In this document: piece by piece, positions 17,016 through 62,618 of the stretch
How the letters are laid out: each line of letters starts with the position of its first letter
Numbering within the stretch: the first letter of the stretch is position 1
Source: Desulfovibrio sp.
GTDB lineage: Bacteria > Desulfobacterota > Desulfovibrionia > Desulfovibrionales > Desulfovibrionaceae
Assembly (NCBI RefSeq): GCF_009712225.1
Contig: NZ_WASP01000005.1
Location: forward strand, 62,001 to 126,000
Length of the DNA: 64,000 bases
Direction: 5' to 3'
Notes under the pieces: generated by a model
Databases searched by the model: none
What the model was told of the DNA's origin: nothing
The model's input: only the letters and a program-made list of their open reading frames with translations
Program-made: the position numbers and the translations under genes

Positions 17016-17162
17016 TCGTTACCTCGGTTCCCGAAACATACGATGTGGCGCTTTTTCCCGCAAGCCCCCATTCCCCGGAACAAGGATTTCACGCCAGAGC
17101 ATCGCCCTTGCTCAGAAGGCGCATCTGGCTTACCTTGCGTGCATGCACTCTGGGAGGTTCTC

Positions 17163-18179
17163 ATGCATGTTCTGGTGACTGGCGCAGCGGGTTTTATTGG
17201 CTACCATCTTTCCCGTCGGCTTCTGGCCGATGGCCACAGCGTTGTGGGCGTTGATAATTGCAACGACTACTACGATGTGCAACTAAAAAAAGACCGTCTG
17301 GCCCAACTTGCCGCCATGCCGCAGGCGCGGAATTTTCGACATGAGCCCCTGGACATGGCCGACGGCCCCGCCATGGCTGCCCTGTTTGCCAGCGAGGGAT
17401 TCACCCATGTGGTCAATCTTGCGGCACAGGCCGGCGTGCGCTACAGCCTCCTGAATCCGGAATCATACCTCAATGCCAACCTGCTGGGCTTTGGACATAT
17501 TCTTGAAGGCTGCCGCCAGAACAAGGTGGGGCATCTGCTTTTTGCCTCTTCTTCTTCCGTTTACGGCATGAACGCGGCGCGGCCCTATAGCGTGCACCAC
17601 AATGTTGACCACCCGGTCAGCCTGTATGCGGCTACCAAAAAAAGCAACGAACTCATGGCTCACGCCTACAGCCATCTGTTCCGCATTCCCTGCACGGGGC
17701 TGCGCTTTTTTACGGTTTACGGCCCGTGGGGCAGGCCCGACATGGCCCTGCACCTCTTTACCTCGGCCATTGTGCGCGGCGAGCCCATCAAGGTTTTCAA
17801 CGAGGGCCGCATGCGCCGCGACTTTACCTATATCGACGACATCGTCGAAGGAGTGGTGCGCCTGCTGCCCCTGGCCCCGCAGGCAGACCCCGATTTTGAC
17901 CCCGAAAACCCCAACCCCGCCAGCAGCTCCGCTCCCTGGCGCATCTACAACATAGGCAACAATAATACGGTGGAACTCAACGATTTCATCAGCACCCTTG
18001 AAGACGCCCTTGGCATGAAGGCCCGCAAAGAGCTTTTGCCCATGCAGCCGGGCGATGTTGAATCCACCTGGGCCAATATTGACGACCTCACAGCCGCCAC
18101 CGGCTTTGCCCCCTCCACGCCCCTCAGCGAAGGCATTGCCCGCTTTGTGGACTGGTACAAAGAGTACTATAAAATATGA
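17163..18179 (+). CDS. NAD-dependent epimerase, UDP-glucuronate 4-epimerase type
   Basis: A 338-residue short-chain dehydrogenase-like epimerase from MHVLVTGAAG, with GGGAGG upstream. The NAD-binding GAAGFIG loop is at 7-13, VDNCNDYYDV follows the second strand, and the catalytic Ser (SSSSVYG) and YAATKK are intact. RFFTVYGPWGRPDM and NEGRMRRDFTYIDDI are characteristic of enzymes that interconvert UDP-glucuronate and UDP-galacturonate for surface polysaccharides. Its stop overlaps the next gene by four bases (ATGA). Confidence 0.9.
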   Translation: MHVLVTGAAGFIGYHLSRRLLADGHSVVGVDNCNDYYDVQLKKDRLAQLAAMPQARNFRHEPLDMADGPAMAALFASEGFTHVVNLAAQAGVRYSLLNPESYLNANLLGFGHILEGCRQNKVGHLLFASSSSVYGMNAARPYSVHHNVDHPVSLYAATKKSNELMAHAYSHLFRIPCTGLRFFTVYGPWGRPDMALHLFTSAIVRGEPIKVFNEGRMRRDFTYIDDIVEGVVRLLPLAPQADPDFDPENPNPASSSAPWRIYNIGNNNTVELNDFISTLEDALGMKARKELLPMQPGDVESTWANIDDLTAATGFAPSTPLSEGIARFVDWYKEYYKI

Positions 18180-20422
18180 ACGACACATTCTCCCCATCTG
18201 CGGATCATCTGAGCATATCCGCCCCCACGCCCGCCCGGCCTGAAATTCTGGCTCCGGCGGGCGACGCGCCTTCATTCCTGGCCGCTCTTGCAGCCGGGGC
18301 AGACGCCATCTATCTGGGCCTCAAGCATTTTTCGGCCCGCATGCAGGCTGAAAACTTTGGCCTTACCGAACTTTCGCGCCTCACAGACCTCGCGCACGCC
18401 GAAAACGCGCGCGTCTACGTGGCCATGAATACCTTGGTCAAGCCGGGCGAACCCGCGCAGGCCTATCGGCTTGCGGCACGTCTTGCCCGTCAGGTGCGAC
18501 CCGACGGGCTCATTGTACAGGATCTGGCCATGCTCGACCTTGCGCGCCAGGCGGGCTTTGAGGGCGGACTTTTTCTCTCCACCCTTGCCAACCTCACACA
18601 CCCCGAAAGCCTGATTCAGGCCAAGCAGCTGGGCGCTGACCGGGTAATCCTGCCGCGCGAGCTTTCCATCGACGAGATCCGCATGATGGGCGAGGCCTGC
18701 CCCGAAGGCCTTGACCTCGAATGCTTTGTGCACGGTGCGCTGTGCTATTGCGTTTCTGGCCGCTGCTACTGGTCAAGCTACATGGGCGGCAAAAGCGGTC
18801 TGCGTGGCCGTTGCGTGCAGCCTTGCCGCCGCGTGTACCGTCAGGGCGGCCCCGCTGCCATTGCCCTTGCCCGCAATGCGGAACGCGAGGAACAGGACCG
18901 TATGCGCCAGGAACAGTCGCGTATGGATATTGCCCGCAAAAACCGCACCGGACGCGACGGACGCGGCAGGCCCGACAGTCGTGGAAAAGCGGACGACCGC
19001 CGCAGCGAATCTTTTGACGCGCCCCGCCGCCCCAGCACGCGCGGGCAGATACGCGGCAAGGAACACAATGGCCGCTGGTTCTCGTGTCTCGACCTTTCGC
19101 TGGACGTGCTGGCAAAAACCCTGCTGAACATTCCGCATCTTGTTTCGTGGAAGATCGAAGGCCGCAAAAAGGGCCCGCACTACGTGTACCACGTGGTTAC
19201 GGCCTACCGCATGCTGCGTGACAATCCCGGCGATGCCCAGGCCCGCAAGGCTGCGGAAGAAATATTGCAGATGTCGCTGGGTCGGCCCGCCTCGCGCGCG
19301 CGCTTTTTGCCGCAGAAAGATCATACAATCCCCACAACGCCGGACGGCCAGACCAGCTCCGGTCTGCTGGCAGGCAAGATTCGCATCGAGCCGGAAGGCG
19401 GCGTAACGCTCAAGCCCTTCTTTGAACTGCTGCCGCAGGACTACCTGCGCATAGGCGTCGAGGACGAGCGCTGGCACGCAACCATGCCCGTGACCCGGCG
19501 CATTCCCAAGGGCGGCAGCCTTACCCTGCGCCTGCCCAAGCACAAGACGCCCAAGGCGGGCACGCCCGTCTTTCTTATCGACAGACGCGAACCAGAGCTC
19601 ATGCGCATCATCAAAAGCTGGCAGGCACGCCTTGAGGCCATGCCCTCGCGCCCCAGCAAGGCTGTGGAAAGCGACCCGCGCCTGCCCAAGCCCATCAAGG
19701 CCAAAACCCGGCCAGACATGTATGTGCGCTCAAGTGTGCCCCATGGCAAGGAAACCCGCACTGGCCGCAACCAGTTGCAGGGTCTCTGGCTTTCGGCCCG
19801 CAGCGCCGAGCTTTCGCGCACGGTGGCCCCGCGCATGTGCTGGTGGCTGCCCCCGGTTATCTGGCCTGATGAAGAAGAAACCATTCGCCGTTCAATCATG
19901 CGGCTGTGGCGTGACGGCGCGCGGCACTTTGTGTGCAACGCACCGTGGCAGCGCGGCCTGTTCCCCGAGCAGCTGGACGAAAACGCCGATCTGCTGGCCG
20001 GGCCTTTTTGCAATGCGGCCAATGCCTCTGCTCTTGGCATACTCGCCAAGATGGGCTTTGTGGGCGCCTTTGTGAGCCCCGAACTGGCGCAGGAAGACAT
20101 GCTGGCCCTGCCCGCACAAAGCCCCCTGCCGCTGGGCGTGGTGCTCTCCGGCTACTGGCCCGTGGGCATCAGCCGCTTTGGCCTGCTTGGCGTCAAACCC
20201 AACGAGCCTTTCCTGAGCCCCATGGGCGAACCCTTCTGGGCGCGCCAGTACGGCGGCAACATCTGGATTTACCCCGGCTGGCCGCTGGATATCACCAGCA
20301 AAAGGCAGGAGCTTATGGCGGCTGGCTACGGCTTTTTTGCCCACATGCAGGAAAACCCGCCCGCTTCGGTACCCGACATGCGACGCAAAAGCCTGTTCAA
20401 CTGGGAAGGAGCCCTGCTGTAA
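18176..20422 (+). CDS. U32 family protein, RlhA/YdcP-like
   Basis: A 748-residue protein. Residues 20-300 form the U32 barrel, with the cysteine cluster ECFVHGALCYCVSGRCYWSS at about 181-200 and RGRCVQPCRR after it. Those cysteines bind an Fe-S cluster in related RNA-hydroxylating proteins. The length and C-terminal extension resemble RlhA, which hydroxylates 23S rRNA, more than the shorter TrhP. An Arg/Asp-rich hydrophilic insertion lies at about 235-295, between the cysteine cluster and the conserved WFSCLDLSLDVL. The gene is translationally coupled to the epimerase upstream. The annotation as peptidase is historical. Confidence 0.8.
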   Translation: MNDTFSPSADHLSISAPTPARPEILAPAGDAPSFLAALAAGADAIYLGLKHFSARMQAENFGLTELSRLTDLAHAENARVYVAMNTLVKPGEPAQAYRLAARLARQVRPDGLIVQDLAMLDLARQAGFEGGLFLSTLANLTHPESLIQAKQLGADRVILPRELSIDEIRMMGEACPEGLDLECFVHGALCYCVSGRCYWSSYMGGKSGLRGRCVQPCRRVYRQGGPAAIALARNAEREEQDRMRQEQSRMDIARKNRTGRDGRGRPDSRGKADDRRSESFDAPRRPSTRGQIRGKEHNGRWFSCLDLSLDVLAKTLLNIPHLVSWKIEGRKKGPHYVYHVVTAYRMLRDNPGDAQARKAAEEILQMSLGRPASRARFLPQKDHTIPTTPDGQTSSGLLAGKIRIEPEGGVTLKPFFELLPQDYLRIGVEDERWHATMPVTRRIPKGGSLTLRLPKHKTPKAGTPVFLIDRREPELMRIIKSWQARLEAMPSRPSKAVESDPRLPKPIKAKTRPDMYVRSSVPHGKETRTGRNQLQGLWLSARSAELSRTVAPRMCWWLPPVIWPDEEETIRRSIMRLWRDGARHFVCNAPWQRGLFPEQLDENADLLAGPFCNAANASALGILAKMGFVGAFVSPELAQEDMLALPAQSPLPLGVVLSGYWPVGISRFGLLGVKPNEPFLSPMGEPFWARQYGGNIWIYPGWPLDITSKRQELMAAGYGFFAHMQENPPASVPDMRRKSLFNWEGALL

Positions 20423-20536
20423 GCCTGCGGGCGGGCAATGGTTGATCCAGCCCGTCACCGCACCCTAACGCATACGCACGGGCCGTCGTCAGAATTTTCT
20501 TCTGTCGGCGGCCCATTCGCTGGCGCAGGAACCGCA

Positions 20537-21394
20537 ATGCACACGCAAGATCCCTTTTACAACGCCCGCCAGCTTTTTCCACGTGGGCTTGAACAACCGC
20601 AAGGCAGCCTGCGCTTTGGCGCAGATGCCCTTCTGCTGGCAGCCTTTGCCGCGCGAAACGTGGAAAGCATGAACGGGGCGCGGCGCAAAGAGCTTGCGGC
20701 GGCAGAGCTAGGCTGCGGCTGTGGTGCGGCCCTGCTGGCGCTGGTTTTGCGTTGCGACACGGTTACGGGGCTTGGGCTGGAAAGGGAGGCACCCCTTGTG
20801 CAGGCAGCCTGCGCCAATGCCCGGCATCTGGGCCTCACCGACAGGCTGCGATTTGCGCAGGCAGATCTGGCGGATACGGCATTTATGCCTACCCTGCCCG
20901 CTACGTGGGGGTACAGGACTGGCAGCCTTGATCTGGTTATTGCCAACCCCCCATATGGCGTGGAAGGCCGCCCCTCGCCCAGCCACCTGCGCGAACGCGC
21001 ACTGCGGGGCACACAGGGCAAGGAAGACCGCGCGCACGTGCTGGCGTTTTTTTGCCGGGCCGCCGCCACCCTGCTGCGACATCAGGGATACTTTTTCTGC
21101 ATCTATGATGCACTGGCGCTGCCTCTGCTGAGTGGCGCGCTGGACGTGGCCGGTTTTGGCCTGCGCACTCTGCTGCCGGTCAGAACGCATGCATCACGGC
21201 CCGCTCTGCGGGTGCTCGTGCTGGCCCGCAAAAATACGGCCCACCAGTGCACCATAGAAGCGCCGCTGACGCTGCACACAGGCAAGGCACGTACTGACCA
21301 AAGCGGCAAGCCGCAGGTAGATACGGCCCAGGGCACCACGGGCGGTTCCCGCTGGTCGGCACAGGCGCTGCGATTCTGCCCCTGGCTCGCCTGA
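20537..21394 (+). CDS. TrmN6-like tRNA (adenine-N6) methyltransferase
   Basis: The start is placed at MHTQDPFYNA, giving 285 residues; an upstream in-frame ATG at 20438 would add 33 unconserved residues. The protein has the class I SAM motif ELGCGCGAALLAL and the N6-adenine motif IANPPYG. LFPRGLEQPQGSLRFGADAL corresponds to the family N-terminus seen in tRNA1(Val) m6A37 enzymes. The last 55 residues are polar and variable. It lies about 115 bp after the U32 gene and 77 bp before the helicase fusion. Confidence 0.82.
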   Translation: MHTQDPFYNARQLFPRGLEQPQGSLRFGADALLLAAFAARNVESMNGARRKELAAAELGCGCGAALLALVLRCDTVTGLGLEREAPLVQAACANARHLGLTDRLRFAQADLADTAFMPTLPATWGYRTGSLDLVIANPPYGVEGRPSPSHLRERALRGTQGKEDRAHVLAFFCRAAATLLRHQGYFFCIYDALALPLLSGALDVAGFGLRTLLPVRTHASRPALRVLVLARKNTAHQCTIEAPLTLHTGKARTDQSGKPQVDTAQGTTGGSRWSAQALRFCPWLA

Positions 21395-21471: not shown

Positions 21472-24400
21472 ATGAACTTCATAGCTGATCTGCACATTCA
21501 TTCCCGGTTTTCGCGCGCCACAAGCAAGGCGCTCAATCCCCGTCATCTGGCTGCCTGGGCTCGCTGCAAGGGTATCAACGTGTTGGGTACGGGCGATTTT
21601 ACGCATCCGCAATGGCGGGCTGATCTGGCGGAACAGCTGGTGCTCGATGAGGAAACCGGCCTGTACCGGCTGGCCGTGGAGCCGGAACCCCTCGATTTTA
21701 TGGCCGCCTCCACAGGCTCGTACCTGCCGGAAGCCCCTGCCCCACTGTTCATGCTGCAGACAGAGATCAGCTCCATCTACAAGCGCGGCGGCAAGGTGCG
21801 CAAGGTACACAACCTTGTGTTTGTGCCCACCCTTGAAGACGCGGAGCGCCTTTCGCGGCGGCTTGCGCAGATCGGCAACCTCAATGCCGACGGCCGCCCC
21901 ATTCTGGGGCTGGATTCACGCGATCTGCTTGAAATCATGTTGGAATGCGCCCCTGGCTCGGTGATGATTCCCGCCCACGTATGGACGCCCTGGTTTGCGC
22001 TGTTTGGCTCAAAATCCGGCTTTGACCGGCTTGAAGACTGCTACGGCGACCTTTCGGAGCACATCTTTGCCCTTGAAACGGGGCTTTCTTCAGACCCTGC
22101 CATGAACCGCCTTATCAGCGGACTCGACAACTACGCCCTTGTGTCCAATTCGGACGCGCACTCCGGGGCAAATCTTGGGCGCGAGGCCAATCTTTTTGAG
22201 GGCCGTCCCAGCTACGCGGGCATGTTTGCGGCCCTGCGCGCCTCGGCCCGGCGCGAAGACCAGAGCGAGCTGGACTGCCGTTTTCTTGGAACCATGGAAT
22301 TCTACCCCGACGAGGGCAAGTATCACCTCGATGGTCACCGCGCCTGCAACGTGGTGCTGCAACCCAAGGATTCGCTGGCCCTCGGCAATATCTGCCCTGT
22401 GTGCGGCAAGCCGCTGACCGTGGGCGTGCTGCACCGCGTGCTGGAACTGGCCGACCGCGAAACAACGCCGGAACTGCCCCGCGAACCAGAGGTACGGCCC
22501 CTCATACCGCTGGCGGAAGTTGTGGGCGAAATTCTTGACGTGGGCCCCACTTCACGCCGGGTGCAGGAGCGATACAGCCGTCTGCTGCGCGAGCTCGGAC
22601 CAGAGCTGGATATTCTTTGCAGCCTGCCGGAAGCCGACATTCGAGCACACTGGGAGCCGCTGGGTGAGGCCGTGGCCCGCATGCGGCGGGGGCAGGTTTT
22701 TCGCGAAGGCGGTTATGACGGCGAATACGGAACGGTGCGTGTTTTTGCGCCAGACGAACTGGCCGATGCCCGCGGCGCCCTGCCGGGTGTAAAAGCGCCT
22801 GCCAAACGTGGCCGTAAAAAGGCTGCTGAAACAGCAGGCGAATCGGCAACTATCAGCGCCACCGCTGCCGTGCGGGTGCGCCGGGCCGCACTTCCGCTTG
22901 CGGAGAGCGCGGACACCACAGCTGCGGACAATTTTTCTGCCGTAAAATCCGCCGCCCGAACAGAAGCCCCTGCCCGAAGCTTTGCCTACTCCACCGACCA
23001 GCAGGCGGTCCTCACTGCCGGGCCAGCACCTGTGCTGGTATTGGCAGGCCCCGGTGCTGGCAAAACCCGCGTGCTCGTGGGTCGCTTGCAGTGGCTTGCC
23101 CAGCAGGGCGAAGATATGGGCCGCGTGCTGGCCGTTACCTTTACGCGGCGCGCCGCCAACGAACTGCGCGAGAGACTGGCGGGCGTGTTTTCCGGGTCCC
23201 GGGGAGCGGCACCACAGTGCGACACCCTGCACGGGATGGCCTGGGCGGCCTTACGCGCGGCCAGTGGCGACAATCCCCCATTGCTGATGGGCGAAGATGC
23301 GGCACTCAGTCTTTTTCGCCTGTCCAACCCAGAGCTGGAACCCCGCGAGGCCCGCAACCTGTGGGACCGCCTTGCACTGGCGCGCGAGGGCGCAACCCTT
23401 GACCAAGAGCCCGCCCAAAGCCCGCTGGCGCAGGCCGCAGCCAACTACACGGCCCGCAAAAACGCCAAACAACGCTATGTGGATTACGCCGATCTGCTGG
23501 ACTGGTGGCTGGCACACGCTGGCACCCGGCCCGAAAGCGCCCGCCCACGGCACGTGCTGGTGGACGAAGTGCAGGATCTTTCTGCCGTGCAGCTCGCAAT
23601 TGTGCGTGCGCTGCTGCCCGCTGGCGGCAGTGGATTTTTTGGCATTGGCGACCCGGATCAGGCCATTTATGGTTTTCGTGGAGTTGCAGGTCAGAGCGAG
23701 GCCAGTTTGCGTGTCTGCTGGCCGGAGCTGGCTGTGTACAGACTGGGGCAAAGTTACCGTTCAAGCCAGAGCGTGCTCGACATGGCCCGCAGCCTTCTGC
23801 AGCACAAGGGTCAGTGCGGCCCCCTCAAGGCTGCGCAGCAGCTCACGGCTGACTTGCGCCTCTTTACCGCGCCAGACGAGCACGCCGAAGCCCGCTGGAT
23901 TGCTGCCCGCGTGCAGCACCTGCTTGGTGCAACGGCCCATACCCTCATGGACAGGCAGGATCCCGACGACCTGCACGGTCTGGCCGGAACCCTCGCCCCC
24001 GGCGACGTTGCGGTTCTTGTACGCCTGAAAGCTCAGATCGCCCCCCTGCAGGCGGTCCTTGAAAAGGCGGGAATACCTTGCGCCGCACCCGCTCAGGACA
24101 CTTTTTGGCAAGACCCTGCCTGCGCGCGGCTGCTGGCCCTGCTCGGCTCTGCTGGCGGCTTTGCGCAGTTTTTTACGGATACCCCCGATGCCGCTGATGA
24201 TGCCGAATCCTTGCCGGTGGAATGGTGCTCGGCTGTCGGCCTTCCGGCTCCCGAAGCCATGTCCGGCTGGCTGGCGGCCAGGCCGTGGGCGGGCGAGCTT
24301 TTTACCGGCGGGCACAGCTGGCGGCAGTTGTGCCGCACATGGAAGCAGAGCGGCAGCTGGTCAGCTTTTTTTGAGCAGCTTGCCTGGCTGCAAGAGGCAG

Positions 24401-24774
24401 AACTTGTGCGCGAAAAGGCCGAGCGGGTACAGATTTTGACCCTGCATGCCTCCAAGGGGCTTGAATTTCAGGCTGTGTTTATTCCTGGGCTGGAAGACGG
24501 CCTGCTGCCCATGCGCCGTGACATGCTGTTTGCAGGTAAGGAAGAGGGATCTGGTCAGGCAGACCCTCTGGATGAAGAGCGCAGACTGCTCTACGTGGGC
24601 CTTACACGAGCGGCCCGCGCACTCTTTTTGAGCCATTGCGAGCAGCGTACGCTCTATGGACGCACCCTGCGCCTTTCACCCTCGCCCTTCATGACCCAGA
24701 TACGCGAATTCTGCCGCCATAGTTCACTGGCCGCCCACACCCGCAAGGAACACAAACAGATCAGCCTCTTTTGA
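21472..24774 (+). CDS. EndoQ-like PHP endonuclease fused to a UvrD/PcrA-type helicase
   Basis: An 1100-residue fusion. Residues 1-430 form a PHP phosphoesterase domain like endonuclease Q: DLHIHSRFSRATSKAL at 6-21, GTGDFTHP, IPAHVW and NSDAHSG supply metal ligands. ICPVCGKPLTVGVLHRVLELADR at about 304-326 is the EndoQ zinc-finger region. EndoQ nicks DNA 5' of deaminated bases. A Lys/Ala-rich linker (about 440-505) leads to a superfamily 1 helicase. It has Walker A GPGAGKT near 525, DEVQD, GDPDQAIYGFRG, QSYRSS, TLHASKGLEF near 990 and LLYVGLTRAAR near 1040. Both halves look intact. The ATG has a GGGTGAACC context. Confidence 0.9.
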   Translation: MNFIADLHIHSRFSRATSKALNPRHLAAWARCKGINVLGTGDFTHPQWRADLAEQLVLDEETGLYRLAVEPEPLDFMAASTGSYLPEAPAPLFMLQTEISSIYKRGGKVRKVHNLVFVPTLEDAERLSRRLAQIGNLNADGRPILGLDSRDLLEIMLECAPGSVMIPAHVWTPWFALFGSKSGFDRLEDCYGDLSEHIFALETGLSSDPAMNRLISGLDNYALVSNSDAHSGANLGREANLFEGRPSYAGMFAALRASARREDQSELDCRFLGTMEFYPDEGKYHLDGHRACNVVLQPKDSLALGNICPVCGKPLTVGVLHRVLELADRETTPELPREPEVRPLIPLAEVVGEILDVGPTSRRVQERYSRLLRELGPELDILCSLPEADIRAHWEPLGEAVARMRRGQVFREGGYDGEYGTVRVFAPDELADARGALPGVKAPAKRGRKKAAETAGESATISATAAVRVRRAALPLAESADTTAADNFSAVKSAARTEAPARSFAYSTDQQAVLTAGPAPVLVLAGPGAGKTRVLVGRLQWLAQQGEDMGRVLAVTFTRRAANELRERLAGVFSGSRGAAPQCDTLHGMAWAALRAASGDNPPLLMGEDAALSLFRLSNPELEPREARNLWDRLALAREGATLDQEPAQSPLAQAAANYTARKNAKQRYVDYADLLDWWLAHAGTRPESARPRHVLVDEVQDLSAVQLAIVRALLPAGGSGFFGIGDPDQAIYGFRGVAGQSEASLRVCWPELAVYRLGQSYRSSQSVLDMARSLLQHKGQCGPLKAAQQLTADLRLFTAPDEHAEARWIAARVQHLLGATAHTLMDRQDPDDLHGLAGTLAPGDVAVLVRLKAQIAPLQAVLEKAGIPCAAPAQDTFWQDPACARLLALLGSAGGFAQFFTDTPDAADDAESLPVEWCSAVGLPAPEAMSGWLAARPWAGELFTGGHSWRQLCRTWKQSGSWSAFFEQLAWLQEAELVREKAERVQILTLHASKGLEFQAVFIPGLEDGLLPMRRDMLFAGKEEGSGQADPLDEERRLLYVGLTRAARALFLSHCEQRTLYGRTLRLSPSPFMTQIREFCRHSSLAAHTRKEHKQISLF

Positions 24775-25388: not shown

Positions 25389-26843
25389 CTACAAACCGAT
25401 TTTTTTCATCAACTCGTACCAGTGGCCGCGTGATATACCCGCCACCTCGGCGGCCTTGCGCACGTCCTCGCCGCTCAGGTCCCAAACCTGCCGCACATAA
25501 GCTTTTTCGGCCTGCAGTTTCCACTCACGCAGACTGGGCGGATTTTGCCCCTCCACATCCTGCCCTGCCACGTCCTGTACAGACAGGCCGCAACTGGCAG
25601 CTATGCCCGGAACTGCCGCAACCGTGGGTGCAATCTCGCTTGCACCCCCTGGCATGGCAGAAGCCTGCCCCATGCGCCGCCGCACGCAATCGACACGCAT
25701 GTGCGTGGGCAGATGTACGGGCAATAACAGGTCCCCCTTGCCAGCAGTCAAGCAGGCCCGCTGAATGCAGTGGATAAGTTCGCGCACGTTGCCCGGCCAG
25801 GCGTATTCCAGCAGCATGCCCAGGGTATCGTCTGAAAGATTCTTTTCCGGCTGATCGCTGCCAAGGCAAAAACGGGCAATGGCCTGCCGCGCCAGTGCCG
25901 GTATTTCGTCCAGCCTTTCACGCAGAGGCGGAATCACAATGGTGAGGCCCTGCAAGCGATAGAGCAGATCTGAACGAAAGCTGTTTTCCTTGGCCATGAG
26001 TTCCAGATTTTTGTTGGTGGCGGCCACCAGCCTGAAGTCGCTGCTGACCTCGCGCACTTCACCCACAGGGCGAAAACGGCGCTGTTCCAGCGCGCGCAAA
26101 AAAACTCCCTGCATGGGCTGGGGCAGGTCGCCCACTTCGTCCAGAAACAGCGTCCCCTTGTCGGCGGCCAGCAGCAGACCGTCCCGCGCTCTGTCGGCCC
26201 CGGTAAACGCTCCCCGGCTGTGGCCGAAGAGGTGGCTCTCTACCAGAGTTTCAGGCAACGAGGCACAGTCTACCGTGATAAAGGGCTTTGCGGCCCGCGT
26301 GCTGTTGCGAAAGAGCGCCCGGGCAAACAGTTCCTTGCCCACGCCGGTTTCGCCCAGTAAAAGCACGTTTACATCGCTTTTTGCGGCCTGCGCCAGAAGC
26401 TTGAGAGCGCGGCTGATGCCCTGCCCAGAGCCAAGTATATGCCCGCTGTCCACCACCAGTTCTTCGCTGGCCGGCGTGCGGTTTTGCCTGAATTGCAAAA
26501 CCTGTTTCAGACACTGCTCAATATCACGCATCTGCAGGGGCTTGGTCAGAAACTCCCACGCTCCGGAGCGCAGGGCCGCCTCGGCATTGTCGCCATCTCC
26601 ATTGCCGGTAATGACCACCACATCGGGGTTGCCGGGCAAGTGGGCAAAATCGGCCTGATATTCCAGTCCGTTGCCGTCTGGAAGCCAGACATCAAGCAGC
26701 ACAACGTCCACGGGTTCAGCAACCATGCCCAAAGCTTCCTGAATGTTGCCCGCGAGCAGGGCTTCGTGCCCCATACGGTTGCAGACAACCTGCACCATGG
26801 TGCGCATAAGCCCCTCGTCGTCCACCACAAGCACTCTGGCCAT
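25389..26843 (-). CDS. nrfR: sigma-54-dependent response regulator, NrfR-like
   Basis: A 484-residue NtrC-type activator. The receiver (1-115) has the acidic pair in VVDDE, phosphoacceptor D51 in LLDVWLPDGNG and Lys in LTKPL. The AAA+ domain has GETGVGKE at 164-171, the sigma-54-contacting GAFTGA at 211-216 and LFLDEVGDL. The C-terminal helix-turn-helix is VRKAAEVAGISRGHWYELM. It is the partner of the adjacent kinase, and the pair is divergent from nrfHA, as known in Desulfovibrio where this regulator controls nitrite reductase. The sigma-54 promoter of nrfH fits that role. Confidence 0.9.
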   Translation of the reverse strand: MARVLVVDDEGLMRTMVQVVCNRMGHEALLAGNIQEALGMVAEPVDVVLLDVWLPDGNGLEYQADFAHLPGNPDVVVITGNGDGDNAEAALRSGAWEFLTKPLQMRDIEQCLKQVLQFRQNRTPASEELVVDSGHILGSGQGISRALKLLAQAAKSDVNVLLLGETGVGKELFARALFRNSTRAAKPFITVDCASLPETLVESHLFGHSRGAFTGADRARDGLLLAADKGTLFLDEVGDLPQPMQGVFLRALEQRRFRPVGEVREVSSDFRLVAATNKNLELMAKENSFRSDLLYRLQGLTIVIPPLRERLDEIPALARQAIARFCLGSDQPEKNLSDDTLGMLLEYAWPGNVRELIHCIQRACLTAGKGDLLLPVHLPTHMRVDCVRRRMGQASAMPGGASEIAPTVAAVPGIAASCGLSVQDVAGQDVEGQNPPSLREWKLQAEKAYVRQVWDLSGEDVRKAAEVAGISRGHWYELMKKIGL

Positions 26844-26915
26844 CAGTCTGACTCCTTGCGCGTGCGCAGCGCATTGATTGTAGCTGATCCTTTTATTTCC
26901 CTTGCCAGCATCCGC

Positions 26916-29273
26916 TTACTCCGTCGCATCAGCATGCGGCCCTGCCGCCAATGCTGCGTCAGCTTCAAGCATTGCCTCGCGCAGGGCGTGGGCAGCTTCT
27001 GGCAGATGACTGGCAGTGGCGTTTTCTGCCGCTGCGGCTGCCACGCGCAAACGGTCAAGCCGCATGATACCCGCCGAATTTTTACAGGCATGGGCCGTGC
27101 GGCGTATCTGTTCCTCGTCAAGCGCTGCCATGGCGGCATCGAGCGCCACCAGCCGCTCCTGCAGCTCGCCGGCCAGCACATCCACAAGGCTTTTGAGCAC
27201 TACGGCGTCGTTATCCACCGCTTCGAGAGCGGCTTTGCGGTTCCACACTGCGGGCTGGCTGGTGGAGCATTGCGGGTTGCTTGTATCATCAATGGATTTG
27301 GAAGCTTTCCTGTTTTCATTGCTCATTGCGATATTGTCCAGATTCTGCGGTTCTACCTGCTGCGCCGGTGCAGTTTGACCTGTGCCCGTCGCTTTTTTGG
27401 CAGCAACAATTTTTTCCAGCTGGCAACGCAGCTGGGCAAAGCTCAAGGGCTTCAAAAATACGCCGTCAGCGCCAAGAGACTCACATTTTTGCACAAATTC
27501 GATGCTGGCTGTGGCAGTATAGACCACCGCCAGTGTTTCGCGATGAGCCAGGGTTTCACCATTGCGCAGCCCGGCAAGCACTTCGAGCCCGCTTATACCG
27601 GGCAACCGGCTGTCGAGTATGAGCATATCCCACGGCCCCTGACGGGGGTCGCGCAATATCTCGAGCGCCTTTTCGCCGCTGGATACGGTCATGGGTTCCG
27701 CTCCCATGCCCTTGAGCATCTGTCGCAGGGCATAGGCAATGGAGGCGGTGTCTTCCGCAACCAGCACTTTTTTGTCTTGCAGGCTCATGTGTTCACACTG
27801 CATCCCATAATCAGCAGTACAGCCCGCTGGCTGCGACTGGTCGCAGGGTTGCAACAGCACATCGAGCGTAAAGCAGGCCCCCTGCCCCGGGCGTGATGCA
27901 AGCCGCACGTCGCCACCCATCAGCCGAGCCAGCGTGCGCGCAATATTCAGCCCCAAACCTGTTCCGGAAGTGTGGGCGCTGCCGCGCCCGCGCTGAAAAC
28001 TCTCGAACACCCGCACCTGGTCTTCTTCGGCCAGACCAGGACCGGTATCTGTAACCGCAACGGTCAGGCGCAAGCCTTCGGCTGTGTTCTCAATAACTGT
28101 GGCGTAGACCCTTACGGAACCCGAATCCGTGAATTTTACCGCATTGCTGATGATATTGCCCAGAGCCTGTCGCAGACGAAAGCTGTCGCCCACTGCACAG
28201 GCGGGCAGGCTGTTCTCCATGCCCAGGGTAAGCGTGATTTCCTTGCTGTCGGCTATGGGTCGGTACAGATTTACGCAGTCGGCAAGGCACTGGCGCAGGT
28301 CAAAGGGAGCAGCCCGCAGGGCAGGTGTACCCTGTTCCAGCGCCGCGTGGTCCATGATGTCGTTGACCATTTCGCGCAGTGCTTCTGCCGCCTGAACCAG
28401 ATAGGACAGTGCTTTTTTGCGCTCTGCTTCGGGCAGTTCCTTTTTTTGGGCCAGTTCGCTCATGCCCACTATGGCCGTGAGCGGCGTGCGCATGTCGTGG
28501 CTCAGGTGGCCCATAAACGTGCTTTTCATGCGGCTGGCTTCTTCTGCCAGCCAGCGCCGGTGTGTAAGATTGAACGTGATACCGCCGATGGCCAGCACAC
28601 CGGTGACCGCAAGCAGGCCATAGAGCAGCCGCATGTTGTGCAACTGCTTGTCGAGGCTTTTCTGAAAAATTGTGGTGTCCTGGCTAACACTTATACCGCC
28701 CAGCACTTCTCCCACCTGCCTGCCCACATGGCAGCGCAGACAGCTCTGCTGGGCTATAAGAACGCTGAGCAGTCGCAGGCCCTGTTTGCCGCCGTGCTGC
28801 GGCGAGGTGAATACCTCGGGGGTTTCTTCGGCGCAGCGTGACAGTGCTGACCGCTCCCACACGTCGGCCATGTTTTCTGGCCTGAGCGGCGAACTGCTGA
28901 CCACGCTGATGGTCACGCCCTCACGCGAGCTGCGCTCTGCCAGCTGCCGACTCATGTAGGCCGGATTTACCAGCACAAGGGTGCGGCCATCCTGCGTTGT
29001 GACGGTTCGCTCGGATTCCGGCAGCCAGAGATTGGGTTGCCCATATTCACTTTGCGCTACATACACGCCGCCATGTGCAGCATTCCAGTTTCTGGCGTCC
29101 ATTAATTGCTGCGCCATTGTAGAAAGTCGTGTATGCTCCAGTTCGAGGCTGTGTTCGGCGTTGGTCTGCACTGCCTGTCTGTACAACACGCCAGTTAGTA
29201 CCAGCCACGCCAGACTGGCAGCCAGAGCCAACCACGGCATCTTTTTTGATTTTTTTATTGATTCGCGTAGCAT
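26916..29273 (-). CDS. hybrid sensor histidine kinase with a periplasmic c-type heme motif
   Basis: A 785-residue inner-membrane kinase. TM1 is at about 12-31 and TM2 at 216-237. The periplasmic part resembles the Tll0287/DUF3365 domain and carries CLRCH at 178-182, a c-type heme attachment motif. The cytoplasmic part has HisKA with H269 in SHDMRTPL, an ATPase domain with NAVKFTDSG, DTGPGL and GTGLGL, and a receiver with LILDSRLPG. It ends in an HPt domain with the His in TAHACKNSAG. The relay would end on the sigma-54 regulator encoded 72 bp downstream. Facing nrfHA, it probably senses nitrite, NO or redox state through heme. Confidence 0.9.
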   Translation of the reverse strand: MLRESIKKSKKMPWLALAASLAWLVLTGVLYRQAVQTNAEHSLELEHTRLSTMAQQLMDARNWNAAHGGVYVAQSEYGQPNLWLPESERTVTTQDGRTLVLVNPAYMSRQLAERSSREGVTISVVSSSPLRPENMADVWERSALSRCAEETPEVFTSPQHGGKQGLRLLSVLIAQQSCLRCHVGRQVGEVLGGISVSQDTTIFQKSLDKQLHNMRLLYGLLAVTGVLAIGGITFNLTHRRWLAEEASRMKSTFMGHLSHDMRTPLTAIVGMSELAQKKELPEAERKKALSYLVQAAEALREMVNDIMDHAALEQGTPALRAAPFDLRQCLADCVNLYRPIADSKEITLTLGMENSLPACAVGDSFRLRQALGNIISNAVKFTDSGSVRVYATVIENTAEGLRLTVAVTDTGPGLAEEDQVRVFESFQRGRGSAHTSGTGLGLNIARTLARLMGGDVRLASRPGQGACFTLDVLLQPCDQSQPAGCTADYGMQCEHMSLQDKKVLVAEDTASIAYALRQMLKGMGAEPMTVSSGEKALEILRDPRQGPWDMLILDSRLPGISGLEVLAGLRNGETLAHRETLAVVYTATASIEFVQKCESLGADGVFLKPLSFAQLRCQLEKIVAAKKATGTGQTAPAQQVEPQNLDNIAMSNENRKASKSIDDTSNPQCSTSQPAVWNRKAALEAVDNDAVVLKSLVDVLAGELQERLVALDAAMAALDEEQIRRTAHACKNSAGIMRLDRLRVAAAAAENATASHLPEAAHALREAMLEADAALAAGPHADATE

Positions 29274-61457: not shown

Positions 61458-62618
61458 CTAGGCGCTTTCGTACAAACGGGTCATGATAAATTCTCTGTGA
61501 CCCAGCACTTCAGCGGCGGTGTTACGGCCATTGCAGGTGCGGAACAGCATTTCAAGCAGTTTGTCGCCAGCGGCATCGAGGTTCATTTCGCGGCGCAGAA
61601 TGCCCGAAACGTCCACATCGATGTGTTCGTTCATGGTGCGAACCGTGCGGGGGTTGGCCGACAGCTTGATCACCGGCAGAATGGGGTTGCCAATGATGTT
61701 GCCCTGCCCGGTGGGGAAGAAGTGGGCCACAAAGCCGGAAGCGGCGCACAGGGTCACCATTTCGGCTGCGGCAGAAGAAGAGTCCATGAACCACAGGCCG
61801 GGAGCGGTGGGGGTTTCAGCCTTGTCGAGGCAGCCGATAACGGGAGCCTTGCGGCCGATCTTCTGGATGTTGCCCAGAGCCTTTTCCTCAATGGTGGTCA
61901 GGCCGCCCTCAATGTTGCCCTTGGTGGGCTGGGAATCGCTGAGGTCGTTGGTCTTGTGGTCGTCAACAACCTTGGCGTAACGGTCGAAGAAGAACTTGAA
62001 CTTGGCGCGCACTTCAGCATTGGCGCAGCGTTCCATGACCAGGTGCTCGCCGCCGGTGATTTCGGTGGTTTCGCCAAACAGGGTGGTAGCGCCCTTTTCC
62101 CACAGCTTGTCAAAAGCGTTGCCCACGGTGGGGTTGGCCGCAATGCCGGAAGTGGTGTCGGATTCGCCACACTTGGTGGAAACCCACAGCTCTTTCACCT
62201 GGCATTCGGTACGCTGCAGCTCAGTGGCGAAGTGCATGAATTCCTTGGCCTTGCGCGAAGCAGAGCAGATGGTCTCAAAGTCGCCGTGCTGTTCGATGGC
62301 AAAGCCTTCAACGGGCTTGCCGGTTTTGGCAATACCGTCCACCACGCGCTTTGTCCACTGGGGCTCAATACCAATAACGATAACGGCTGCCACGTTGGGG
62401 TTGGAGCCAACGCCGATCAGCGTGCGGAAATGCAGGTCGAGGTCTTCACCAAACTGAAGGCGGCCATAAGCGTGGGGCAGGGCAAGGGAACCCTTGACAT
62501 TGTTGGCCACGGCTTCGCAGGCGGCGTTGGAAAGATCGTCCAGGGGAAGGATTATAACGTGGTTACGGATACCCACGCGGCCATTTTCGCGGCGATAGCC
62601 CATGAAAGTCTGTTGCAT
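61458..62618 (-). CDS. suyB: UxaA-family large subunit, (2R)-sulfolactate sulfo-lyase beta-like
   Basis: The 386-residue product from [10 protein letters not shown] belongs to the altronate/galactarate dehydratase superfamily large subunit. It has [78 protein letters not shown] and the conserved end [20 protein letters not shown]. These segments agree best with SuyB, which with SuyA splits sulfolactate into pyruvate and sulfite. For a sulfite-reducing bacterium this would deliver both carbon and electron acceptor. Cys residues for an iron site are present. It starts four bases after suyA. Another hydroxy-acid dehydratase remains possible. Confidence 0.78.

Follow-up and report, generated by a model that had tools for sequence, protein, structure and literature searches.

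Endonuclease Q (EndoQ), which nicks DNA at deaminated bases, has previously been placed in repair pathways together with a helicase. In the model of Shiraishi 2015 (PMC4357722), a helicase removes the cut piece after incision by EndoQ and EndoV, and a helicase step after EndoQ is also drawn in PMC8438529. The archaeal enzyme binds PCNA and is stimulated by it through a C-terminal PCNA-interacting protein (PIP) box, and EndoQ homologues from bacteria, among them Bacillus subtilis and a Desulfovibrio, are already known from the literature to have beta-clamp motifs in their C-terminal region (PMC4858679). Here we describe a gene of Desulfovibrio sp. in which an EndoQ domain, a UvrD-like superfamily 1 (SF1) helicase and a clamp-type tail follow one another in a single chain. 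The gene lies in a stretch of 64,000 nucleotides, referred to below as the window, that spans positions 62,001 to 126,000 of contig NZ_WASP01000005.1 (assembly GCF_009712225.1).

A sequence-only reading of this DNA had proposed that an EndoQ-like region and a UvrD-type helicase share one chain, and matches to PDB sequences, predicted folds and Pfam families bear this out. We argue that the product is probably a one-chain nick-and-unwind enzyme that acts in the repair of deaminated bases, and probably of abasic sites, that is tethered to the sliding clamp and serves as the main entry to uracil repair in its own genome.

EndoQ domain and helicase in one chain

The fusion gene is an intact open reading frame (ORF) that starts with ATG and has no internal stops at exactly the positions given in Table 1. 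When residues 1-436 were compared with PDB sequences using phmmer, the PfuEndoQ chains 5zb8, 7k30 and 7k31 were the sole matches at E <=1 (best 8.7e-50). An AlphaFold model of the same residues (predicted local distance difference test, pLDDT, 91.7; predicted template modeling score, pTM, 0.91) retrieved 5zb8 (E 3.6e-36) and 7k30 (E 3.5e-33) in Foldseek. VIA gave a Z of 45.2 to 5zb8 (389 residues, root mean square deviation 2.7) and 44.8 to 7k30. Beyond EndoQ, the runner-up protein in VIA was PsfC at Z 16.5, and the other PHP families considered (Pol III, PsfC, RNase AM and YcdX) are ruled out by Z values of at most 16.5 versus 45. The sequence search and the structural comparison, both suggested by the sequence-only reading, thus agree on EndoQ. 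The NCBIfam hypothetical equivalog TIGR00375 scored 155.5 bits, below its cut-off of 326.6, with its best stretch at residues 108-421; judged by this sequence model, residues 1-436 fall outside that equivalog and are placed only in the wider EndoQ family.

We next consider the residues expected of an active EndoQ, using an alignment of the window copy, 120 other bacterial EndoQ domains (L038-L157; 121 rows in all) and the printed part of PfuEndoQ. The window copy is identical to the printed PfuEndoQ at 125 of 353 aligned positions, and 64 columns are both conserved in >=95% of the bacterial domains and identical in Pfu. The PHP ligands D6, H8, H10, D42, E98, H113, H169, D228 and H230, which cover motifs I-IV and the conserved Glu and His, are unchanged in 121/121 rows. 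In PfuEndoQ, the catalytic residues are Glu76, His84 and His139, and His139, Gly169 and Ser171 form the steric gate of the base pocket (PMC8307549). The catalytic counterparts are E98, which is matched to Glu76 by position only as that Pfu stretch is absent from the printed alignment, H113 and H169, and those of the pocket are H169, G204 and S206; every bacterial row retains all of them, so that the base-pocket residues named as a check by the sequence-only reading are present. The zinc site H289-C292-C308-C311 aligns to Pfu C249/C252/C268/C271. Here the earlier expectation of an EndoQ zinc finger needs one correction: putative metal ligands are kept at all four positions, and the first is His, not Cys. 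Since this HxxC-CxxC pattern occurs in 118/121 bacterial rows, fused or unfused alike (C292, C308 and C311 in 121/121, H289 in 118/121), versus CxxC-CxxC in PfuEndoQ, the His is a trait of this set of bacterial proteins and not decay in the window copy.

Significant Pfam matches on the whole protein fall in the helicase half only (UvrD-helicase 8.2e-35, UvrD_C 3.6e-32), and fused proteins are presumably annotated as UvrD-domain proteins in public genomes. PDB sequences matching this half are UvrD, PcrA and Rep, and in a Foldseek search with the full model, ranks 1-22 are all chains of these three. Helicase motifs start at residues 526 (Walker A, GPGAGKT), 698 (DEVQD), 726 (GDPDQAIYGFRG), 992 (HASKGLEF) and 1038 (RLLYVGLTRA), a set that takes in Walker A, DExQD and motifs III, V and VI; together with the ligand rows above, they uphold the earlier statement that helicase motifs and PHP metal ligands are intact. 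No NCBIfam equivalog cut-off was reached (PcrA 204.2 of 911.2 bits, UvrD 192 of 1144.45, Rep 191.6 of 951.45), and we therefore assign the second half, from these scores, as a UvrD-like SF1 helicase only, outside the UvrD, PcrA and Rep equivalogs. Across the 84 fused proteins with complete ends, Walker A and DExQD are kept in all and motif III in 80.

Recurrence of the fusion and its clamp-type tail

Long frames recur in the genus and family, and the fusion is therefore not an accident of assembly. The EndoQ match sits in an open frame of >=1099 aa in 7/7 same-genus genomes of the phylum sample (own genome included) and in one of >=850 aa in 120/133 EndoQ-positive Desulfovibrionaceae genomes, a count made by frame length only, with the helicase itself verified in fetched loci. 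Recurrence across genera and phyla likewise rules out a chance or assembly fusion. The sequence-only reading had presented EndoQ as best known from archaea; with a domain match in 193/297 sampled genomes of the phylum, it is common in bacteria too. In one Desulfovibrionaceae genome EndoQ is matched twice, first in a 438-aa frame interrupted by an inner stop and again, at only 32% identity, in a 1053-aa frame.

A scan of named genomes identified at least 585 stretches encoding EndoQ relatives (one gene may match twice). The best 80 by similarity to the query, many of them from metagenome bins, comprise 68 fused loci, 4 adjacent pairs, 6 loci with EndoQ alone, one of which (L114) runs up to the edge of its contig, and 2 cut loci; because these 80 were chosen by similarity, 68/80 is not a bacterial rate. 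They span Desulfobacterota, Melainabacteria, Elusimicrobia, Actinomycetes, Clostridia, Planctomycetes, Binatia, Alphaproteobacteria, Bacteroidota, Verrucomicrobia, Spirochaetes and others, and the fused rows include the isolates Blautia schinkii, Saccharothrix algeriensis, Geobacter argillaceus and Desulfonema magnum. In the four pairs, the helicase gene directly follows EndoQ in the same orientation, with gaps of 28, 305, 11 and -3 bases; the pair with the gap of 305 may be a broken fusion. A picked set of 40 loci was divided equally between long and short frames, and the helicase was also the next gene in 2 of its 20 unfused loci.

Phylogenies of both halves were generated to follow this association. 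In a quick EndoQ tree rooted by PfuEndoQ, a single distant row that was flagged for its long branch, unfused proteins make up the earliest bacterial rows, 89/89 fused rows fall within one 114-row clade (Shimodaira-Hasegawa-like approximate likelihood ratio test, SH-aLRT, 98), and linked and alone states change 15 times. This topology is consistent with a single ancient fusion or pairing and many later losses, although its root is one long-branch row. In a helicase tree of 111 rows, the 85 fused and 6 paired helicases all lie inside one 96-row clade (SH-aLRT 99), as do free helicases from five genomes with unfused EndoQ (G009, G024, G104, G133 and G204); outside it are L001, the best UvrD-family match of the fusion's own genome, and 14 others. 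This tree was also quick, was rooted on an arbitrary UvrD-like row and included only 20 other helicases; its weak spots are L187, on a long branch, and the placement of L183 and L187 at support 70. The fused and paired helicases look like a separate subfamily, probably devoted to EndoQ. A phage origin is not backed: with the patterns used, 13 stretches of viral contigs were matched and 0 encode a relative.

The fusion might serve joint expression only, with the helicase working elsewhere, for example in replication restart, uncoupled from EndoQ nicks. Many EndoQ proteins do stand alone, and a long disordered linker separates the two halves. Against this, fusion or pairing recurs in many phyla, the linked helicases form one clade, and Walker A and DExQD are missing from none of the 84 complete fused proteins, so we consider an uncoupled helicase distinctly unlikely. 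Our case for a link between EndoQ and helicase draws on the 68 fused and 4 paired loci among the 80, the 2 further pairs among the 20 picked unfused loci and the single helicase clade.

The bacterial beta-clamp-binding consensus is a QL[SD]LF-type pentapeptide. QISLF forms the last five residues of the fusion protein, in a tail (residues 1089-1100) with pLDDT <50 in the full-length model. Counting the window protein, 84 fused proteins have complete ends; a strict Q[LI]xLF motif occurs within the last 25 residues of 49 of them and a relaxed form in 69. By comparison, 1034 other ORFs of >=250 aa from the same loci, some of them unreal, yielded 1 strict and 4 relaxed motifs, and when the tails of the fused proteins were shuffled 500 times, strict motifs numbered 0.2 on average and never more than 2. 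These ORFs are the better tail control because some control helicases are clipped by locus ends (L191 clearly). The sequence-only reading did not include a C-terminal clamp-type motif in its description. In two unfused pairs, L050 and L146, clamp-type tails occur on both EndoQ and helicase, that of the L050 helicase in relaxed form. Because clamp motifs of bacterial EndoQ are already published (PMC4858679), the motif by itself is no novelty; our addition is its position behind a helicase and its enrichment. From its sequence, the fusion protein is probably clamp-tethered through QISLF.

Uracil repair in the Desulfovibrionaceae and a proposed mechanism

We asked which other uracil and apurinic/apyrimidinic (AP) site repair genes accompany the fusion. 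Its own genome (completeness 100) has 0 matches to the uracil-DNA glycosylase (UDG) superfamily PF03167, to EndoV/nfi-type PF04493 or to nfo TIGR00587, where UDG is counted as absent if PF03167 gives no match at E <=0.001 and uracil enzymes of other folds lie outside this search; in control genomes, UDG was detected in 13/14 and EndoV in 6/14. The sequence-only reading had suggested looking for ung and nfi in the same genome, and neither family is matched. Nth and MutY are present. The fusion is likely the main uracil route in this genome, and since no EndoV was found, dual incision appears less probable than one 5' nick plus displacement.

The wider sample places this genome in its family context. 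UDG is found in 264/297 genomes of the phylum sample and in 0/11 of its Desulfovibrionaceae, all 11 of which have EndoQ. Among 139 Desulfovibrionaceae genomes, EndoQ is present in 133 (112/113 good genomes), UDG in 45 (matches from 1.8e-36 to 1.6e-6) and EndoV in 2. EndoQ fusions as a general replacement of UDG are ruled out, as 179/182 EndoQ-positive phylum genomes outside Desulfovibrionaceae have UDG. There is no clear association of EndoQ with EndoV across the phylum sample (Fisher p 0.22). The 5 of 45 named-locus genomes without UDG, listed with no completeness values, are L081 and L087, both Desulfovibrionaceae, and L096, L146 and L152.

One genus of the family, g236 (six genomes), combines small genomes with an EndoQ that is short-framed or missing. 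UDG matches occur in G376, which has no EndoQ, and in G334 and G412, where EndoQ is truncated; G359, G401 and G390 (one inner stop) have none. This genus offers a possible natural test of UDG replacement.

Alternatively, the fusion could be an endonuclease that mainly attacks AP sites, or damaged bases in general, and displaces the strand, with uracil secondary and the missing UDG compensated otherwise. Archaeal EndoQ cleaves AP sites and some oxidised pyrimidines (PMC11354406, PMC8307549), a genome with no nfo match would benefit from a further AP endonuclease, and UDG and EndoQ mostly coexist outside Desulfovibrionaceae. However, the residues reported to bar T and A from the pocket are unchanged in 121/121 rows, and the PF03372 match of the own genome may itself be an ExoIII-type AP endonuclease. 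We regard this alternative as unlikely.

For a clamp-tethered enzyme that nicks and unwinds at deaminated bases, we infer nicking, 3'-5' polarity, coupling of nick to unwinding, and clamp docking as follows. The EndoQ half would flip the damaged base into a pocket that, by its residues, should reject T and A. It would then nick the strand 5' of a lesion such as dU, dI, dX or an AP site, as the conserved residues and the activity of archaeal and Bacillus EndoQ suggest. QISLF would tether the protein to the beta sliding clamp much as the PIP box of archaeal EndoQ tethers it to PCNA. The helicase half, reached via the flexible linker, would load at the nick, move 3' to 5' on the intact strand (a polarity expected by analogy with the UvrD/PcrA/Rep family) and displace the strand whose first nucleotide carries the damaged base. 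Trimming would then fall to a 5' or flap nuclease, refilling to a repair polymerase and sealing to ligase.

Several points weigh against this reading. The relative placement of the two halves is uncertain in the full-length model (pLDDT 85.4, pTM 0.57). Unfused EndoQ is common, with frames of <850 aa in 74 and >=850 aa in 76 among the 150 matches listed for the 193 positive genomes. Within the seven closest fused rows (window protein, L058, L059, L060, L078, L079 and L080), the strict tail motif occurs in the window protein and L059 alone and the relaxed form in L058. In the own genome, hypoxanthine could be dealt with by a weak AlkA-like protein, and the one PF03372 match is unclassified. UDG is also present in 179/193 EndoQ-positive genomes of the phylum and in 40/45 genomes reached via the named loci (best 80 of at least 585). 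Within Desulfovibrionaceae, a comparison in favour of the reading is weak: UDG occurs in 6/8 genomes with EndoQ missing or truncated versus 39/131 in the rest (Fisher p 0.014), where the truncated class was defined post hoc and the genomes are related; with absent EndoQ only (UDG in 4/6), p is 0.086, and 5 of these 6 genomes are <90% complete (54 to 89). The signal for replacement of UDG by EndoQ within the family is thus suggestive only.

Extending the proposal, we tentatively raise the possibility that much of the Desulfovibrionaceae repairs uracil without a uracil glycosylase, with a clamp-tethered EndoQ-helicase as the main initiating enzyme that nicks and displaces on its own, and that the same machine constitutes a widespread, unrecognised second bacterial route for uracil. 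Many of the bacterial EndoQ proteins found here are joined to a helicase and have a clamp-type tail, which provides a concrete candidate for the post-nick step. The Desulfovibrionaceae, a mesophilic bacterial family mostly without UDG, are suited to genetic study of that step.

Gene neighbourhood and comparison with known systems

Table 1. Positions within the window of the fusion gene, its parts and its neighbours
Feature	Positions	Strand	Basis
EndoQ-helicase fusion gene, 1100 aa	21472..24774	+	ORF and translation
EndoQ domain (residues 1-432), with PHP core, zinc domain and a helical part at its C-terminal end	21472..22767	+	phmmer, predicted fold
Putative zinc-site ligands H289, C292, C308, C311	22336..22404	+	alignment with PfuEndoQ
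Disordered linker, residues 443-502	22798..22977	+	pLDDT <50 in full-length model
UvrD-like SF1 helicase, residues about 508-1085	22993..24726	+	Pfam PF00580 and PF13361, Foldseek, motifs
C-terminal QISLF, beta-clamp-binding-type pentapeptide, residues 1096-1100	24757..24771	+	motif counts
Sugar epimerase, peptidase U32-family protein, methyltransferase-like protein (upstream of fusion)	17043-21394	+	Pfam
Sigma-54 response regulator, hybrid histidine kinase with Tll0287-like region	25389-29273	-	Pfam

The epimerase, peptidase U32 and methyltransferase trio is also found upstream in L058, L059, L078 and L079, and the sigma-54 regulator and histidine kinase also adjoin the fusion in L058 and L059. 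The sixth neighbour scanned with Pfam is a small protein without a match.

This neighbourhood bears on whether the enzyme instead acts in defence, cutting uracil-containing or otherwise base-modified phage DNA with a helicase that behaves like GajB of Gabija. PADLOC GajB models match the helicase half (best 3e-52), Bacillus EndoQ may serve antiviral defence (PMC8307549), and the adjacent upstream methyltransferase shows weak similarity to Eco57I-type methylases (E 0.00046, under the curated cut-off). All of the 25 PADLOC matches listed, out of 48, nevertheless fall within the helicase half, and Pfam found no GajA among the six neighbours (five with families, one without). The closest loci retain the genes upstream of the fusion, the viral-contig patterns returned no relative, and EndoQ in 112/113 good Desulfovibrionaceae genomes is unlike the patchy distribution of defence genes. 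Taken together, these observations make a defence role very unlikely. Gabija and the window protein share the SF1 helicase family only, and they differ in that the fusion has an EndoQ domain, lacks GajA among the scanned neighbours and is near-universal in Desulfovibrionaceae.

Repair by EndoQ provides the closer comparison. We found no description of a helicase fusion of EndoQ in open-licence literature text; figure 9A of PMC4357722, which gives the lengths of bacterial homologues, may show a long Desulfovibrio protein. With PfuEndoQ, TkoEndoQ, MacEndoQ and Bacillus pumilus EndoQ, the window protein shares the domain of about 430 residues, its fold, the PHP ligands and the pocket residues, and like archaeal EndoQ, with its PIP box, it has a clamp-type motif at the extreme C terminus. 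It differs in an added helicase of about 600 residues and in a zinc site of HCCC versus CCCC. That helicase has the motifs and fold of UvrD, PcrA and Rep, whereas its scores lie far under their equivalog cut-offs, and the own genome's best UvrD-family match stands separate from the fused helicases in the tree. The helicase step itself is shared with the Shiraishi 2015 model (PMC4357722); in the window protein, the helicase is in the same chain.

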